Origin: a virus
Direction: 5' to 3' (one strand)
Virus record (IMG/VR): IMGVR_UViG_3300025087_000188
Coordinates: 1 to 39,218 of that record
DNA: 39,218 nucleotides
This document shows, piece by piece, positions 9,181-39,218 of the stretch (positions are counted from its first letter, which is position 1; every line of letters starts with the position of its first letter). A model generated the notes under the pieces. It was given only the letters and a program-made list of their open reading frames with translations. It did no database searches and was not told the DNA's origin. Made by a program: the position numbers and the translations under genes.

Positions 9181-9378
9181 ATGGTTACTCGGGACTACCT
9201 CGACGGGCGGCGGCGTGACCTCCAGCGGGATCTCGCGGAGACCGAGCGGCAGGTGGCGATGTTCTCGGCGAAAGTTCTGATGCTCCGGGGTGCCATCGCG
9301 GAGATCGACGAGACGCTCAAGCAGGACGCCGAGCCCGCACCGCCCACATCCGAGGACGCTCCCCCCGAGGTGACCTGA
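9181..9378 (+). CDS. Small coiled-coil protein (65 aa)
   Basis: ATG 9181 reads 65 codons, and the TGA overlaps the next ATG. Residues 1-50 form a continuous amphipathic helix (YLDGRRRDLQRDLAETERQV, AKVLMLRGAIAEIDETLKQD) followed by a Pro/Glu tail. Short coiled-coil proteins at fibre genes can be assembly chaperones or trimerisation partners, but here the role is only positional inference. Confidence 0.6.
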   Translation: MVTRDYLDGRRRDLQRDLAETERQVAMFSAKVLMLRGAIAEIDETLKQDAEPAPPTSEDAPPEVT

Positions 9379-10280
9379 TGGGTGCCTGGAACGCCGGGGC
9401 CTGGTGGGCGGGCCTCGCCTTCGTCCCGAGCACGCTTCGGGTCAACGGCGACGTCCTGCCCCAGGCGGACGACGGCGGGACACTCGGGTCGGCGACCCGC
9501 TCGTGGTCGGACCTCTTCCTCGCCTCCGGGGCGGTCATCAACTTCAACAACGGAGACGTGACCCTCACCCACAGCGCCAACGCCCTGACGCTCGCGGGCG
9601 GGCAGCTGCTCCTCCCCGACGGCACGGAGTCGCTACCGGCTGTGGCACGGTCGTCACAATCTGACACAGGGATCTATTGGGATAATGATTCTCTGTACTT
9701 TACAAGGGACGGTATTGCCACATTTGGCATGTCCCTCAACGAATTGCGACTTGGCTCCGCACGGCAAATAACGTGGTCATCTAACACTAACCCAACGGCT
9801 GCAACGGGAGATGTGTTTCTCTCTCGCCACGCCGCCGGCCACGTCAAAGTCACCACGAACGGGAGCGTGCTCGGGACGCTCTCCACTGACAAGCTCCAGT
9901 CCGGGGTTGCGGCGAATGGTTACTACTCAGTCCTACAGACGATCGCCGAGGCCCATACCCTGGCGCTCGCCGGCACCAGTGACACGGCGGCCATCATCCC
10001 GGCAAACGCGCTGGTGATTGGGGTCTCGTTCCGGGTCACGACCGAGATCACCGGCTGCACGTCGATCGACGCCGGGGTGGCAGGGGCGACGACCCGCTAC
10101 GGCACGGGTGTTGCCCTGGTGGCCGGGACGACGAACGTCTCGGCTGGGGTCACGAACCCGACCGTCTACGGCACAGCCACGGCGATCCGCTTCACGGCGG
10201 TCGGGGGCGGGGCCTCGTTCACGGCCGGGGTGATCCGTGTGGTGGTCCACTACATCAGTCTGACGCCGCCTACTTCGTAG
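9378..10280 (+). CDS. Fibre-like virion protein with mosaic centre
   Basis: A 300-aa protein. An N-terminal anchor (GAWNAGAWWAGLAFVPSTLR) leads into the fibre repeat style DDGGTLGSATRSWSDLF and VTLTHSANALTLAGG, then a lower-GC central segment (about bases 9650-9830), then a C-terminal domain of about 115 residues with GATTRYGTGVAL and TAGVIRVVVHYISLTPPTS. That C-terminal domain is clearly homologous to the end of the gene at 14617-15240. Such beta-rich, Gly/Thr/Ser-rich proteins form fibres or host-contacting tips. Whether it sits on head or tail is not decided by the sequence. Start overlaps the previous stop. Confidence 0.7.
   Translation: MGAWNAGAWWAGLAFVPSTLRVNGDVLPQADDGGTLGSATRSWSDLFLASGAVINFNNGDVTLTHSANALTLAGGQLLLPDGTESLPAVARSSQSDTGIYWDNDSLYFTRDGIATFGMSLNELRLGSARQITWSSNTNPTAATGDVFLSRHAAGHVKVTTNGSVLGTLSTDKLQSGVAANGYYSVLQTIAEAHTLALAGTSDTAAIIPANALVIGVSFRVTTEITGCTSIDAGVAGATTRYGTGVALVAGTTNVSAGVTNPTVYGTATAIRFTAVGGGASFTAGVIRVVVHYISLTPPTS
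9650..9830. other. Low-GC patch inside the fibre gene
   Basis: The bases here are visibly less GC-rich than anything around them (roughly half A+T by eye) and use codons such as ATA, TTA-rich and AAT that neighbours avoid, while staying in frame. This suggests a horizontally acquired cassette within the fibre. Confidence 0.55.
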
Positions 10281-30230: not shown

Positions 30231-30240
30231 GGAGGCCGTG

Positions 30241-31002
30241 ATGGCAGAGACGCAGGACGTGGCGATGGTGTTGCAGCGCGAGGGCCTGACACTCCTGGAG
30301 CGGGCGCGGGCGCTGGTGGTGGTGGACGACACGACCTTCCGGCAGGCGGACGAGCTGGACCGGCTGGGCAAGGACGGCGAGCGACGCATCAAGGAGTTCA
30401 TGGACCCGATCTGCGAGGCGACGAACCGGGCCCACAAGGAGGCGACGTCCCGGCGGGCGAAGCTCCTGGAGATCCCCGGCGAGGTGCGGCGGCTGGCCCG
30501 GGCGGGCATCACGACCTACGAGCAGGAGCAGGCCCGGCTCGCGCAGGAGGCGGCGGCGGCGGCCGAGCGGGAGCGCCAGCGGCTCGAGGCCGAGGCGCGC
30601 GTCCAGGCCGAGCGCGAGCAGGCGCGGCTGCGGAAGGAGGCCGAGGACCGGCGGCTGGAGGAAGCGGCGGCGGCGGAGGCGGCGGGCGACATCGAGACGG
30701 CGACGAAGCTGATCGAGGCCCCCGTGGAGGTGCCGACCGTCGAGGCGGCTCCGGTGTTCATGCCGCCGGCCCCCGTGTTCGCTCCGCCGGAGATCCAGGG
30801 GCGGAGCTTTCGGAGCCAGTGGAAGGCGCAGTGCGTGGACCTCAAGCTCGTGGTGCGCGCCGCCGCGGCGGGCAACCAGACGGCGCTGGCGTGTCTGATG
30901 TGGAACGACGTGGCGGCCAACGGGCTCGCGCGGTCGACCCGAGGCGGCGTCCGGGTGGACGGGATCAGGTTCTTCGAGGAGCGCATCACGACGACGCACT
31001 GA
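30241..31002 (+). CDS. Coiled-coil phage protein of the early region
   Basis: A 253-aa protein. ATG 30241 is chosen because AGGAGG lies about 6 bases upstream (GTG 30238 is alternative). A helical N-terminus (DVAMVLQREGLTLLERARAL) is followed by DELDRLGKDGERRIKEFMDP and a long coiled coil (about 95-165) of the type ARLAQEAAAAAERERQRLEA. The C-terminal domain contains RSQWKAQCVDLKLVVRAAAA and VRVDGIRFFEERITT. Such proteins are frequent beside phage recombination genes and resemble those linked to ssDNA-annealing modules (general knowledge). Precise role unknown. Confidence 0.6.
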   Translation: MAETQDVAMVLQREGLTLLERARALVVVDDTTFRQADELDRLGKDGERRIKEFMDPICEATNRAHKEATSRRAKLLEIPGEVRRLARAGITTYEQEQARLAQEAAAAAERERQRLEAEARVQAEREQARLRKEAEDRRLEEAAAAEAAGDIETATKLIEAPVEVPTVEAAPVFMPPAPVFAPPEIQGRSFRSQWKAQCVDLKLVVRAAAAGNQTALACLMWNDVAANGLARSTRGGVRVDGIRFFEERITTTH

Positions 31003-31015
31003 GGGGGTGGACATC

Positions 31016-31516
31016 ATGCTGACGAATCCGGCGTTCTACATCTGGGTCGGTGACGATGCTCTCTGTCCGATGAAGGGCGAGTTCCCGAGCGACAGCCGGT
31101 GGTCGGGCCTCCTGCACGCAGCCAAGCATCCATGTCACGTCGGTGCCGTAGGCTACACGGGCTCACTGCCGAAGGACCATCCAGAGTACCTCGTGGCTGT
31201 CCGGGACGAAGGGCGGCAGCTGTACCTCAACATTGTGGACGCCCCCGTGCCGATCTTCCGGCACGAGGTCTTCACGGCAGCGCTGGACTTCTTGGATGTC
31301 TGGGCGTTCACCGGGCCAGTATTGGTTCACTGCAACAATGGTCTTTCGCGCGCCCCCTCTCTCGTGCTGGCGTGGCTGGCGAAGCGGGGCCGAAAGGACT
31401 GGGCGGATAGGTCCTTCGCCGAGGCGCGGGCGGCCTTCGAGCGCCTGATGCCGGACTACGCGCCCGGCAAGGGGATCGAGCAGTTCCTGGTCGAAGAGTG
31501 GGGGAGGATCACGTAA
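31016..31516 (+). CDS. Dual-specificity-type protein phosphatase
   Basis: A 166-aa protein starting at ATG 31016, 9 bases from GAGGGGG (GTG 31007 is alternative). The catalytic P-loop is clear: GPVLVHCNNGLSRAPSLVLA with H105-C106-x5-R112, followed by S/A residues as in cysteine-phosphatases. An Asp in LYLNIVDAPVPI (D75) is placed as the general acid. This matches the HCx5R superfamily (DSP/PTP fold). It removes phosphate from Ser/Thr/Tyr or nucleotide/phosphoinositide substrates. The target is unknown. Phage copies may silence host signalling (inference). Its stop TAA overlaps the next ATG. Confidence 0.75.
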   Translation: MLTNPAFYIWVGDDALCPMKGEFPSDSRWSGLLHAAKHPCHVGAVGYTGSLPKDHPEYLVAVRDEGRQLYLNIVDAPVPIFRHEVFTAALDFLDVWAFTGPVLVHCNNGLSRAPSLVLAWLAKRGRKDWADRSFAEARAAFERLMPDYAPGKGIEQFLVEEWGRIT

Positions 31517-34541: not shown

Positions 34542-34862
34542 ATGCCGCGCATCCGCACGTTGAAGCCCTCACACGCCCGCACATTTCGGTATTTCCGCGT
34601 CGCGCACAGCTTTCTCGCTCTCCCGCTCCCGTGGTACGCGAAGATGGTCTACGTCGCGCTCTGCCATCACGTCGATGCTGGCGAGGACAGTCCCTCGATC
34701 GGGAGCCTCGCCTCCGACGCGGGATGCTCGGTCAGCTTAGTCCACAGGGCCTTCATGAGGCGCGAGGCGGTTGGGGTGCTCCAGATCCGGTCGGGGCGGC
34801 GCCCCGGCGGCACGAATGTCTACACCCTCCACGATCCGCCAGGCCATCGAGGATTCCCATGA
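34542..34862 (+). CDS. Winged-helix replication-region protein (106 aa)
   Basis: ATG 34542 follows GGGGGAGC. It starts MPRIRTLKPSHARTFRYFRV, a PRIRTxKP opening known from phage replication helix-turn-helix proteins. Residues 36-95 form a winged helix: MVYVALCHHVDAGEDSPSIG, the recognition region SLASDAGCSVSLVHRAFMRR and wing GGTNVYTLH. It is clearly paralogous to the N-terminus of the next gene. Probably binds origin or operator DNA, as initiator partner or regulator. Stop overlaps the next ATG. Confidence 0.68.
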   Translation: MPRIRTLKPSHARTFRYFRVAHSFLALPLPWYAKMVYVALCHHVDAGEDSPSIGSLASDAGCSVSLVHRAFMRREAVGVLQIRSGRRPGGTNVYTLHDPPGHRGFP

Positions 34863-35563
34863 GCGTCTACGCGATTGGCCACGCCTTCCAGGTGCACCTG
34901 CCACCACGAGAGAAATTCGTGCTTGTGGCGCTGGCAGATAACGCCGACCACGCCGGGTCGTGCTATCCCTCGCTTGAGACCCTCGCGGGCAAGACGTCGA
35001 TGTCCGTGAGAACCGTCCAGCGCGCACTCAGGGATCTCGAGACCCTAGGCGCACTCGTCGTCGAACGACACGGCGGGCGCGGTCGGTCGAGCCGGTACAC
35101 CATCGTCGGCGTGCCGACAGTACCGACGGTGGTAAGAAAAAACCCTGTCAGCGTGTCACCCATTGCCGCTGGAAAGGGTGACAACGAGTCCATAAAGGGT
35201 GACACGGGTGGCCAACTAACCGTAGTTAACCGTACTACTCCTAGTCTTAGAAAGACTAGGGCCGTTGGTCAGAGCGCCAACGGCGTCGGGGCCCTCATTG
35301 AGGCCTACCAGCAGCAGTTCGAGGCGAAGTACCAGGAGCCCCCGCTCATCAGTCGGCCGAAGGAGCCCGTGCTGCTGGCCAAGCTCGTCAAGCAATTCGG
35401 CGAGGAGAAGGTCCGGGACAGGCTGGCACAGTTCTTCCGGAGCGATGACAAGTTCATCGTCGGATCTGGCCACTCGCTCGCCGCGTTTCACGGGTGCTTC
35501 AACAAGCTCATCGCCCTGGCGCGCGACCGCGAGCCCCAGCCGGGCTACGGGAAGTGGGGCTAG
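34859..35563 (+). CDS. Replication initiator protein with embedded origin
   Basis: A 234-aa protein. Residues 15-83 form a winged helix of HTH_36 type (EKFVLVALADNADHAGSCYP; SLETLAGKTSMSVRTVQRAL; wing GRSSRYTIVG). A polar linker (90-140) is encoded by repeat-rich DNA (see origin). The C-terminal domain (142-225) has IEAYQQQFEAKYQEPPLISR and FGEEKVRDRLAQFFRSDDKF, then HSLAAFHGCFNKLI, like the C-terminal domains of phage replication organisers. Lambda O has the same plan: N-terminal DNA binding, C-terminal helicase loading, with the origin in the linker DNA. No helicase or polymerase gene is seen, so host enzymes may be used. Confidence 0.72.
   Translation: MSVYAIGHAFQVHLPPREKFVLVALADNADHAGSCYPSLETLAGKTSMSVRTVQRALRDLETLGALVVERHGGRGRSSRYTIVGVPTVPTVVRKNPVSVSPIAAGKGDNESIKGDTGGQLTVVNRTTPSLRKTRAVGQSANGVGALIEAYQQQFEAKYQEPPLISRPKEPVLLAKLVKQFGEEKVRDRLAQFFRSDDKFIVGSGHSLAAFHGCFNKLIALARDREPQPGYGKWG
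35142..35260. other. Candidate origin of replication inside the initiator gene
   Basis: Three copies of GGGTGACA-type iteron: GTGTCACCC (inverted, 35153-35161), AAAGGGTGACA (35173-35183) and AAAGGGTGACAC (35194-35205). The two direct copies are 21 bases apart, i.e. two helical turns. They are followed by a direct repeat TAACCGTA at 35217-35224 and 35227-35234 (10 bases apart), an inverted AACTA/TAGTT, and the perfect 9-bp stem CCTAGTCTT/AAGACTAGG (35240-35260). The segment is more A/T-rich than anything near it. Together these are the parts of an iteron origin plus unwinding element. Confidence 0.6.
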
Positions 35564-35871: not shown

Positions 35872-36528
35872 ATGAAGATCGAGATCACGCACCGCGTTTC
35901 CGGCGCCGTGCTGTTCGGCGTTGAAGCAGAATCCTGGCGTTGCGCCGTCGAGATCGCTGTCAAGCAAGACGCCAACCTCCGGGACGCCGACCTCGGGGGC
36001 GCCGACCTCCGGGGCGCCGACCTCCGGGGCGCCGACCTCGGGGGCGCCGACCTCGGGGACGCCGACCTCCGGGGCGCCACCCTCCGGGGCGCCGACCTCC
36101 GGGGCGCCACCCTCCGGGGCGCCGACCTCGGGGGCGCCAACCTCCGGGGCGCCACCCTCCGGGGCGCCGACCTCGGGGGCGCCGACCTCGGGGGCGCCGA
36201 CCTCCGGGGCGCCGACCTCGGGGGCGCCAACCTCTTGGGTGCCAACCTTTGGGGCGCCAATCTTCGAGACACCGATCTCTGGAGCGCCAACCTCCGTGGC
36301 ACCAGGGTACTCGCTGTCGCATTCCTCGGCCACATCGACGGGTGGGCGACAACGCTCTGGCGCACCGATCAGGGCTACCGCATCCAGGCGGGATGCCATA
36401 TGTTCACGCTCGACGAGGCGACAGCGCACTACGCGGATCGCGCGGACCGCCGCGGGCTCTACTACCTCGCCACGGAGGCGTGGCGGGTGATCGCGCGGTT
36501 GCAGGGATGGGAGCCGGAGTCGTCATGA
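35872..36528 (+). CDS. Pentapeptide-repeat protein (218 aa)
   Basis: ATG 35872 with GAAGGAG upstream. Residues 1-33 form an N-cap ([20 protein letters not shown]). Residues 34-143 are 22 consecutive A(D/N/T)LxG pentapeptides that form a right-handed beta helix. The C-terminal 75 residues ([33 protein letters not shown] and [13 protein letters not shown]) are a separate domain that recurs with such repeats in phages. Pentapeptide proteins can mimic DNA and inhibit gyrase (general knowledge), but that function is not shown here. The unusually uniform repeats suggest recent expansion. Confidence 0.8.
35971..36300. repeat. Tandem 15-bp array coding pentapeptides
   Basis: Twenty-two units of 15 bases, mostly GCCGACCTCCGGGGC or the variant with CTCGGG, in frame with the gene. 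Near-identity between units makes copy number variable and assembly errors likely. All three forward frames and the reverse strand stay open here, which creates spurious reading frames. Confidence 0.8.
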
Positions 36529-38962: not shown

Positions 38963-39218
38963 CCGACGCTGAGTTCGTGGAAGCGATGGTCTTCCTCACG
39001 GGCAATACGGCCGCACCTTCAGTGCTCCTCTCCCCCACGGAGTTCGACCGCCTCGTGGCGCTAGCGCAGTGCGGACTCCGGCTTGCGAAGGACGTCAGTG
39101 ACGGGATGGATTGTTTGCCGTCGTGCAATGCTGACGCGCATGACGAGATTTGTCCGTTTGCACATTCAGAAGTCGCGTGGCGGACACTTCGCCAGCAACT
39201 CGCCGATGCGAAGGCGCG
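38959..39218 (+). CDS. Partial gene running off the right edge
   Basis: ATG 38959 overlaps the previous stop and the frame remains open to the end of the window (86 codons). It begins MTDAEFVEAMVFLTGNTAAP and has FDRLVALAQCGLRLAKDVSD, then two cysteines in CLPSCNADAHDEICPF, possibly a metal site. Partial. No family recognised. Confidence 0.6.
   Translation, partial: MTDAEFVEAMVFLTGNTAAPSVLLSPTEFDRLVALAQCGLRLAKDVSDGMDCLPSCNADAHDEICPFAHSEVAWRTLRQQLADAKA

Follow-up and report, generated by a model that had tools for sequence, protein, structure and literature searches.

In the origin of bacteriophage lambda, ori-lambda, four iterons precede an A/T-rich region that is about 39 bp long (PMC6022878). 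Each iteron is an 18-bp dyad that is bound by two O proteins (PMC6022878), and the minimal fragment competent for unwinding comprises two iterons and the adjacent A/T-rich region (PMC7466680). In the lambda sequence the iterons lie in the middle of the O gene (at 39034, 39054, 39078, and 39101, spaced about 20-24 nt) and an inverted repeat, GTCAGAG...CTCTGAC, follows them.

Two further systems invite comparison with the locus described here. Gp27 of Mesorhizobium phage vB_MseS-P1 (locus L006) and its relatives in IMG/VR contigs have a winged helix-turn-helix (wHTH) domain with the same VQR recognition helix and carry GGGTGACA iterons at the same place in the gene. However, the wHTH domains are 29% identical, the number of iterons is greater in these relatives, and both the C-terminal part of the protein and the repeats of the A/T-rich region differ. 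DnaD is a host primosome protein with a role in replication initiation. By sequence profile its N-terminal domain (PDB 2vn2, 2v79) is the closest solved wHTH structure (E 6e-7), but nested iterons are a feature of the phage genes.

The viral contig IMGVR_UViG_3300025087_000188 was analysed over its whole length (39,218 bases, without end repeats; hereafter the window) and has a GC content of 70%. In one of its genes, P0001, three iterons lie inside the coding linker of the initiator itself, with an A/T-rich region immediately 3' of them. An initial annotation had proposed that this segment is an origin within an initiator gene. The proposal is upheld by comparison with distant relatives: the linker repeats agree with the family's iteron rule, the A/T peak of the family coincides with the A/T-rich stretch, and TAACCGTA falls within the family repeat. 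The segment is very probably a phage replication origin of the lambda type nested in its own initiator gene, with a wHTH domain that would bind the iterons and an A/T-rich stretch that would open. A nested origin as such is of a kind already known, to which the contig adds one more member. The features are as follows.

34859-35563, plus strand: O-like replication initiator gene (P0001), 234 aa; PF13730, PHROG, and AlphaFold model
P0001 domains (AlphaFold): wHTH, residues 1-82; linker, about 84-140; C-terminal helical domain, about 142-224
35006-35047, plus strand: recognition helix codons, residues 50-63 in the model; SVRTVQRALRDLE is residues 49-61
35021-35023, plus strand: R55 codon, predicted specificity residue; best single predictor of iteron class
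35154-35161, minus strand: iteron 1, inverted GGGTGACA; 17.3 bits, third-best in the contig
35176-35183, plus strand: iteron 2, GGGTGACA inside AAAGGGTGACA (35173-35183); 21.6 bits, best in the contig
35197-35204, plus strand: iteron 3, GGGTGACA inside AAAGGGTGACA (35194-35204); 20.6 bits, second-best in the contig
35205-35250: A/T-rich stretch, presumed unwinding element; low GC, at the position of the family A/T peak
35217-35224, plus strand: unwinding-region repeat 1, TAACCGTA; family AACCNT repeat, coding strand, spacing 10-12
35227-35234, plus strand: unwinding-region repeat 2, TAACCGTA; family AACCNT repeat, 10 nt from the first copy
35240-35260: hairpin CCTAGTCTT-AGA-AAGACTAGG, 3' of the A/T-rich stretch; optional in the family

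The initiator gene and its neighbours

P0001 belongs with the replication initiation/O-like HTH_36 proteins of the PHROG collection, matching both wHTH and PHROG profiles significantly. In a Pfam profile search its wHTH domain was assigned to HTH_36 (PF13730, E 2e-15, 56.6 bits against a cut-off of 25), and the PHROG families that P0001 matches best are those of replication initiation or O-like proteins (phrog_1032, 270, and 391; E 4.5e-16 to 1.6e-17). The AlphaFold model has a pLDDT of 95-98 over the wHTH and mostly 40-65, which is low confidence, over the linker; the linker is presumably disordered. Profiles and model agree with the earlier assignment of 34859-35563 as a winged-helix initiator gene. 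A structure search returned generic wHTH matches only.

How close is P0001 to lambda O itself? The lambda O family, Phage_rep_O (PF04492), was not among the Pfam hits of P0001 up to E 1; conversely, lambda O matches PF04492 but not the HMM of the P0001 family. The likeness to lambda O that had been claimed holds for the arrangement, with iterons inside the gene and an A/T region 3' of them, but not for the protein, which lies outside PF04492. There are also differences in the DNA, since lambda has four iterons where the contig has three, and the A/T region of lambda shows no AACC repeats.

Directly upstream of the initiator gene is a gene for a second small wHTH protein, P0002 (34446-34862, likely start ATG 34542). 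P0002 is HTH_36-like and 34% identical to the wHTH of the initiator, and the two genes overlap by ATGA. A similar tandem of two HTH genes is found in Microbacterium phage ValentiniPuff (L015). Upstream of the replication region there are an exonuclease-like gene (30238-31002; phrog_10477, E 3e-15) and a dual-specificity-phosphatase-like gene (31007-31516), while a pentapeptide-repeat protein (35872-36528; PF00805, E 2e-37) is encoded downstream of the initiator. Among the nearby genes tested, none was recognised as encoding a helicase or a loader, and the neighbouring ORFs matched no replication family; in relatives such as L008, L014, and L011 a DnaB or P gene adjoins.

Linker repeats as DNA or as peptide

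The window contains GGGTGACA only three times, in each case in the P0001 linker. As had been described, two direct copies lie 21 bases apart and one copy is inverted; the pair of TAACCGTA repeats with a 10-base spacing is likewise present, at 35217 and 35227. Each direct copy of GGGTGACA falls within an 11-bp perfect repeat, AAAGGGTGACA. What had been called a perfect 9-bp palindrome does have perfect 9-bp arms (35240-35248 and 35252-35260), but these flank a 3-nt loop and form a hairpin rather than a contiguous palindrome.

The segment had also been described as A/T-rich in a GC-rich genome, and the 119 bp concerned are 52% GC compared with 70% overall. They are part of a stretch that ranks second in the contig for A/T content; the first, 9672-9790 (44.5% GC), is inside ORF 9378-10280. 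The linker makes use of rare codons (GC3 0.48 vs 0.84 in the rest of the P0001 gene). Synonymous recodings, in which the same peptide was given phage codon usage, have a GC content of 0.671 +/- 0.017; the 0.517 of the linker is lower by about nine standard deviations. GC skew, which had been suggested as a check together with AT content, was uninformative because the main genes lie on one strand: over the greater part of the contig the cumulative skew rises, and near the P0001 gene it shows no clear switch.

Are the repeats more than could be expected by chance? When the segment is recoded synonymously, an 8-mer occurring three times in it has a P of 0.02, and when its bases are shuffled, 0.0012; the best 9-mer repeat has a P of 0.058 under synonymous shuffles within the gene. 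Taken alone, the repeats of the contig are moderately unlikely by chance; they are suggestive, because triple 8-mers are found elsewhere in the contig too. For this reason relatives were compared. A protein search found no close relatives of P0001 among viral contigs, therefore distant relatives were used, drawn from annotated phages, IMG/VR contigs, and bacterial genomes.

These relatives carry about 3-9 iteron copies in the coding linker, not at promoters, and the iteron sequence varies between lineages. In 125 of 126 dereplicated wHTH genes, no repeat of the wHTH part is as strong as the best one in the linker. Synonymous shuffling lowers the linker repeat score from 4.21 to 2.22 across 162 dereplicated wHTH genes, and in 137 of the 162 the linker iterons beat all 20 shuffles. 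Iteron spacing in the family has modes at 16-17 and 21-24 nt and, counted modulo 3 (142/128/125), follows no codon phase. Since the spacings are without codon phase and shuffling removes the repeats, the linker repeats of the family appear to be under selection at the level of DNA rather than peptide.

The alignment of wHTH domains of all classes was too diverse for a scan of the contig, and sub-alignments were used instead. An iteron model was made from 31 other genes with VQR-like helices, with the contig left out. Its three best matches in 39 kb are 35176, 35197, and 35154, and the next site scores 10.5 bits; the model set is partly circular, as a large part of it was retrieved by searching DNA for AGGGTGACA. 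Protein comparison alone led to L006, which has the same motif, and to the VQR genes of set C (see below).

A very improbable alternative is that a repetitive linker peptide (K-G-D) gave rise to the repeats as a by-product, or that they arose by chance in a linker under low constraint. Two of the GGGTGACA copies do encode KGD, the 9-mer statistic of the contig alone does not fall below 0.05, and short in-frame repeats in other phage genes give the same DNA word. The DNA search for paired AGGGTGACA returned 61 loci without a wHTH match among the 80 listed, many of them spaced 18, 27, 36, or 45, which would fit in-frame coding repeats. However, the inverted copy in P0001 encodes VSP, the model built without the contig picks exactly these sites, and peptide repetition would explain neither the phase-free spacings lost on synonymous shuffling nor the way iteron class tracks helix residue 55.

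Recognition helix and iteron class

The relation between helix and iteron was examined in set C, 83 genes selected by protein only. Where Gln occupies the position of residue 54, Arg at position 55 is paired with GTGAC/GTGTC iterons in 26 genes and never with GTGCA, and for residues other than Arg the pairing is with GTGCA in 40 genes and never with GTGAC/GTGTC; one gene in each residue group is unclassified (Fisher 6e-19, not corrected for relatedness). Among genes whose wHTH domains are 50-80% identical outside the helix, iteron class is shared in 1023 of 1023 pairs of the same residue class and in 0 of 487 pairs of different residue class. In a leave-cluster-out comparison the R55 column ranks top among 93 wHTH columns (0.864 vs a baseline of 0.71; next column 0.787), and helix similarity correlates with iteron similarity when similarity elsewhere is removed (partial r 0.29, 0 of 500 permutations). 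On the best tree the residue-55 rule is followed by about 17 of 21 independent pairs and opposed by 0.5, with only two such pairs on well-supported branches, so that tree support for the count of switches is weak.

A universal one-residue rule is ruled out by the distant genome-encoded members (set B), where Arg occurs with 'other' iterons in 9 of 15 cases; therefore, neighbouring helix residues matter too. The VRR helix goes with GGGCGGA-like iterons.

Might the small upstream protein P0002 read the iterons in place of the O-like protein? It has an HTH_36-like domain and its gene overlaps that of the initiator by 4 bases, yet across the family it is the helix of the very gene carrying the iterons that predicts iteron class, and the gene content of the neighbourhood differs among the relatives inspected. 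A reading role for P0002 is barely credible.

Iterons in L227, L285, L309, and L217 are often dyads of the form AGGGTGACA-N3-TGTCACCCT, suggesting that a dimer may bind each iteron as in lambda. In the GGGTGACA copies of the contig the second dyad halves are weak.

The A/T-rich stretch and the proposed origin

Across 216 genes of the family, A/T content rises by as much as 0.15 at 10-40 nt past the last iteron. GAACC(A/G)TCA-like repeats lie in the A/T-rich stretch and are nearly confined to the coding strand: AACCDT is found in 296 forward and 9 reverse copies, with 9.6 expected. Their spacing is mostly 11 nt (96), followed by 10 (29) and 12 (26). In 59 genes less than 50% identical to each other there are 54 forward copies of AACCNT, where synonymous shuffling leaves 18.5. 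An unbiased autocorrelation has elevated values at lags of 10-13 and again near 22-24. The TAACCGTA pair is the contig's version of this family repeat.

AACC repeats occur in the helix classes QR, QY, RN, and KR and are absent from the MN class. AACC(A/G)TCA-like repeats about 11 nt apart are common to phages with quite different iterons (L232, L452, L344, L005), and in the MN class, as seen in L085, GAACCAGTCAAT-like repeats take the place of AACC. Both the AACC repeats and the helix-iteron rule look new; no publication stating either was found in the open-access library searched, and one may exist elsewhere. Hairpin arms of at least 8 bp are present in 8 of 61 dereplicated relatives vs 0.8 expected; the hairpin, present in a minority of relatives only, was rejected as a core element.

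The arrangement also bears on the proposal that the GGGTGACA sites are operators, from which the wHTH protein represses or autoregulates transcription from within the gene, the origin lying elsewhere. Three sites, one of them inverted, would suit an operator, wHTH folds are mostly found in regulators, and a second wHTH gene lies directly upstream. Nevertheless, this explanation is improbable: in relatives the sites are in the coding linker and not at promoters, their number and the two spacing modes are followed by an A/T peak with strand-specific repeats, and the PHROG profiles name the family replication initiation.

If the segment is an origin nested in its initiator gene, how might it work? 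The wHTH domain would bind the three GGGTGACA iterons through helix 3 (S49-V-R-T-V-Q-R55), and cooperative binding would strain and open the A/T-rich stretch just 3' of them. The AACC repeats on one strand would probably serve to place the initiator, or a partner that loads the helicase, on single-stranded DNA, and the C-terminal domain may recruit the helicase-loading machinery. The sequences themselves show the architecture of the locus, selection on the family's linker repeats at the DNA level, and covariation of residue 55 with the iterons; that P0001 binds and melts its segment, which strand is chosen, how the helicase is loaded, and that the segment acts as an origin are what we infer. 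With three GGGTGACA iterons and two AACC copies the contig has fewer repeats than many relatives; two iterons are enough for unwinding in lambda, therefore three would suffice here in principle.

The family comparisons have led to a wider proposal, whose chances of being right we put at about even: that HTH_36/O-like phage initiators share a nested origin in two parts. The first part would be the iterons, set by the recognition helix with a switch at the R55 position (Arg with GTG(A/T)C, other residues with GTGCA). The second would be the less variable, strand-specific AACC repeat, spaced about 11 nt, which either a shared partner or the initiator would read in single-stranded form.

The contig adds a lambda-type nested origin in a phage without a close relative in the collections searched. 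The relation between residue and origin, seen in hundreds of distant phages, is testable and would allow origins in metagenomic phages to be located from the protein; it would also explain how an initiator and its origin can drift apart in sequence and still remain matched. For a loading signal on single-stranded DNA in these origins, the strand-specific AACC repeats offer a concrete candidate. If the two-part design is true, one gene carries the protein, its matching origin, and the loading signal, and is thus a self-contained replication cassette.
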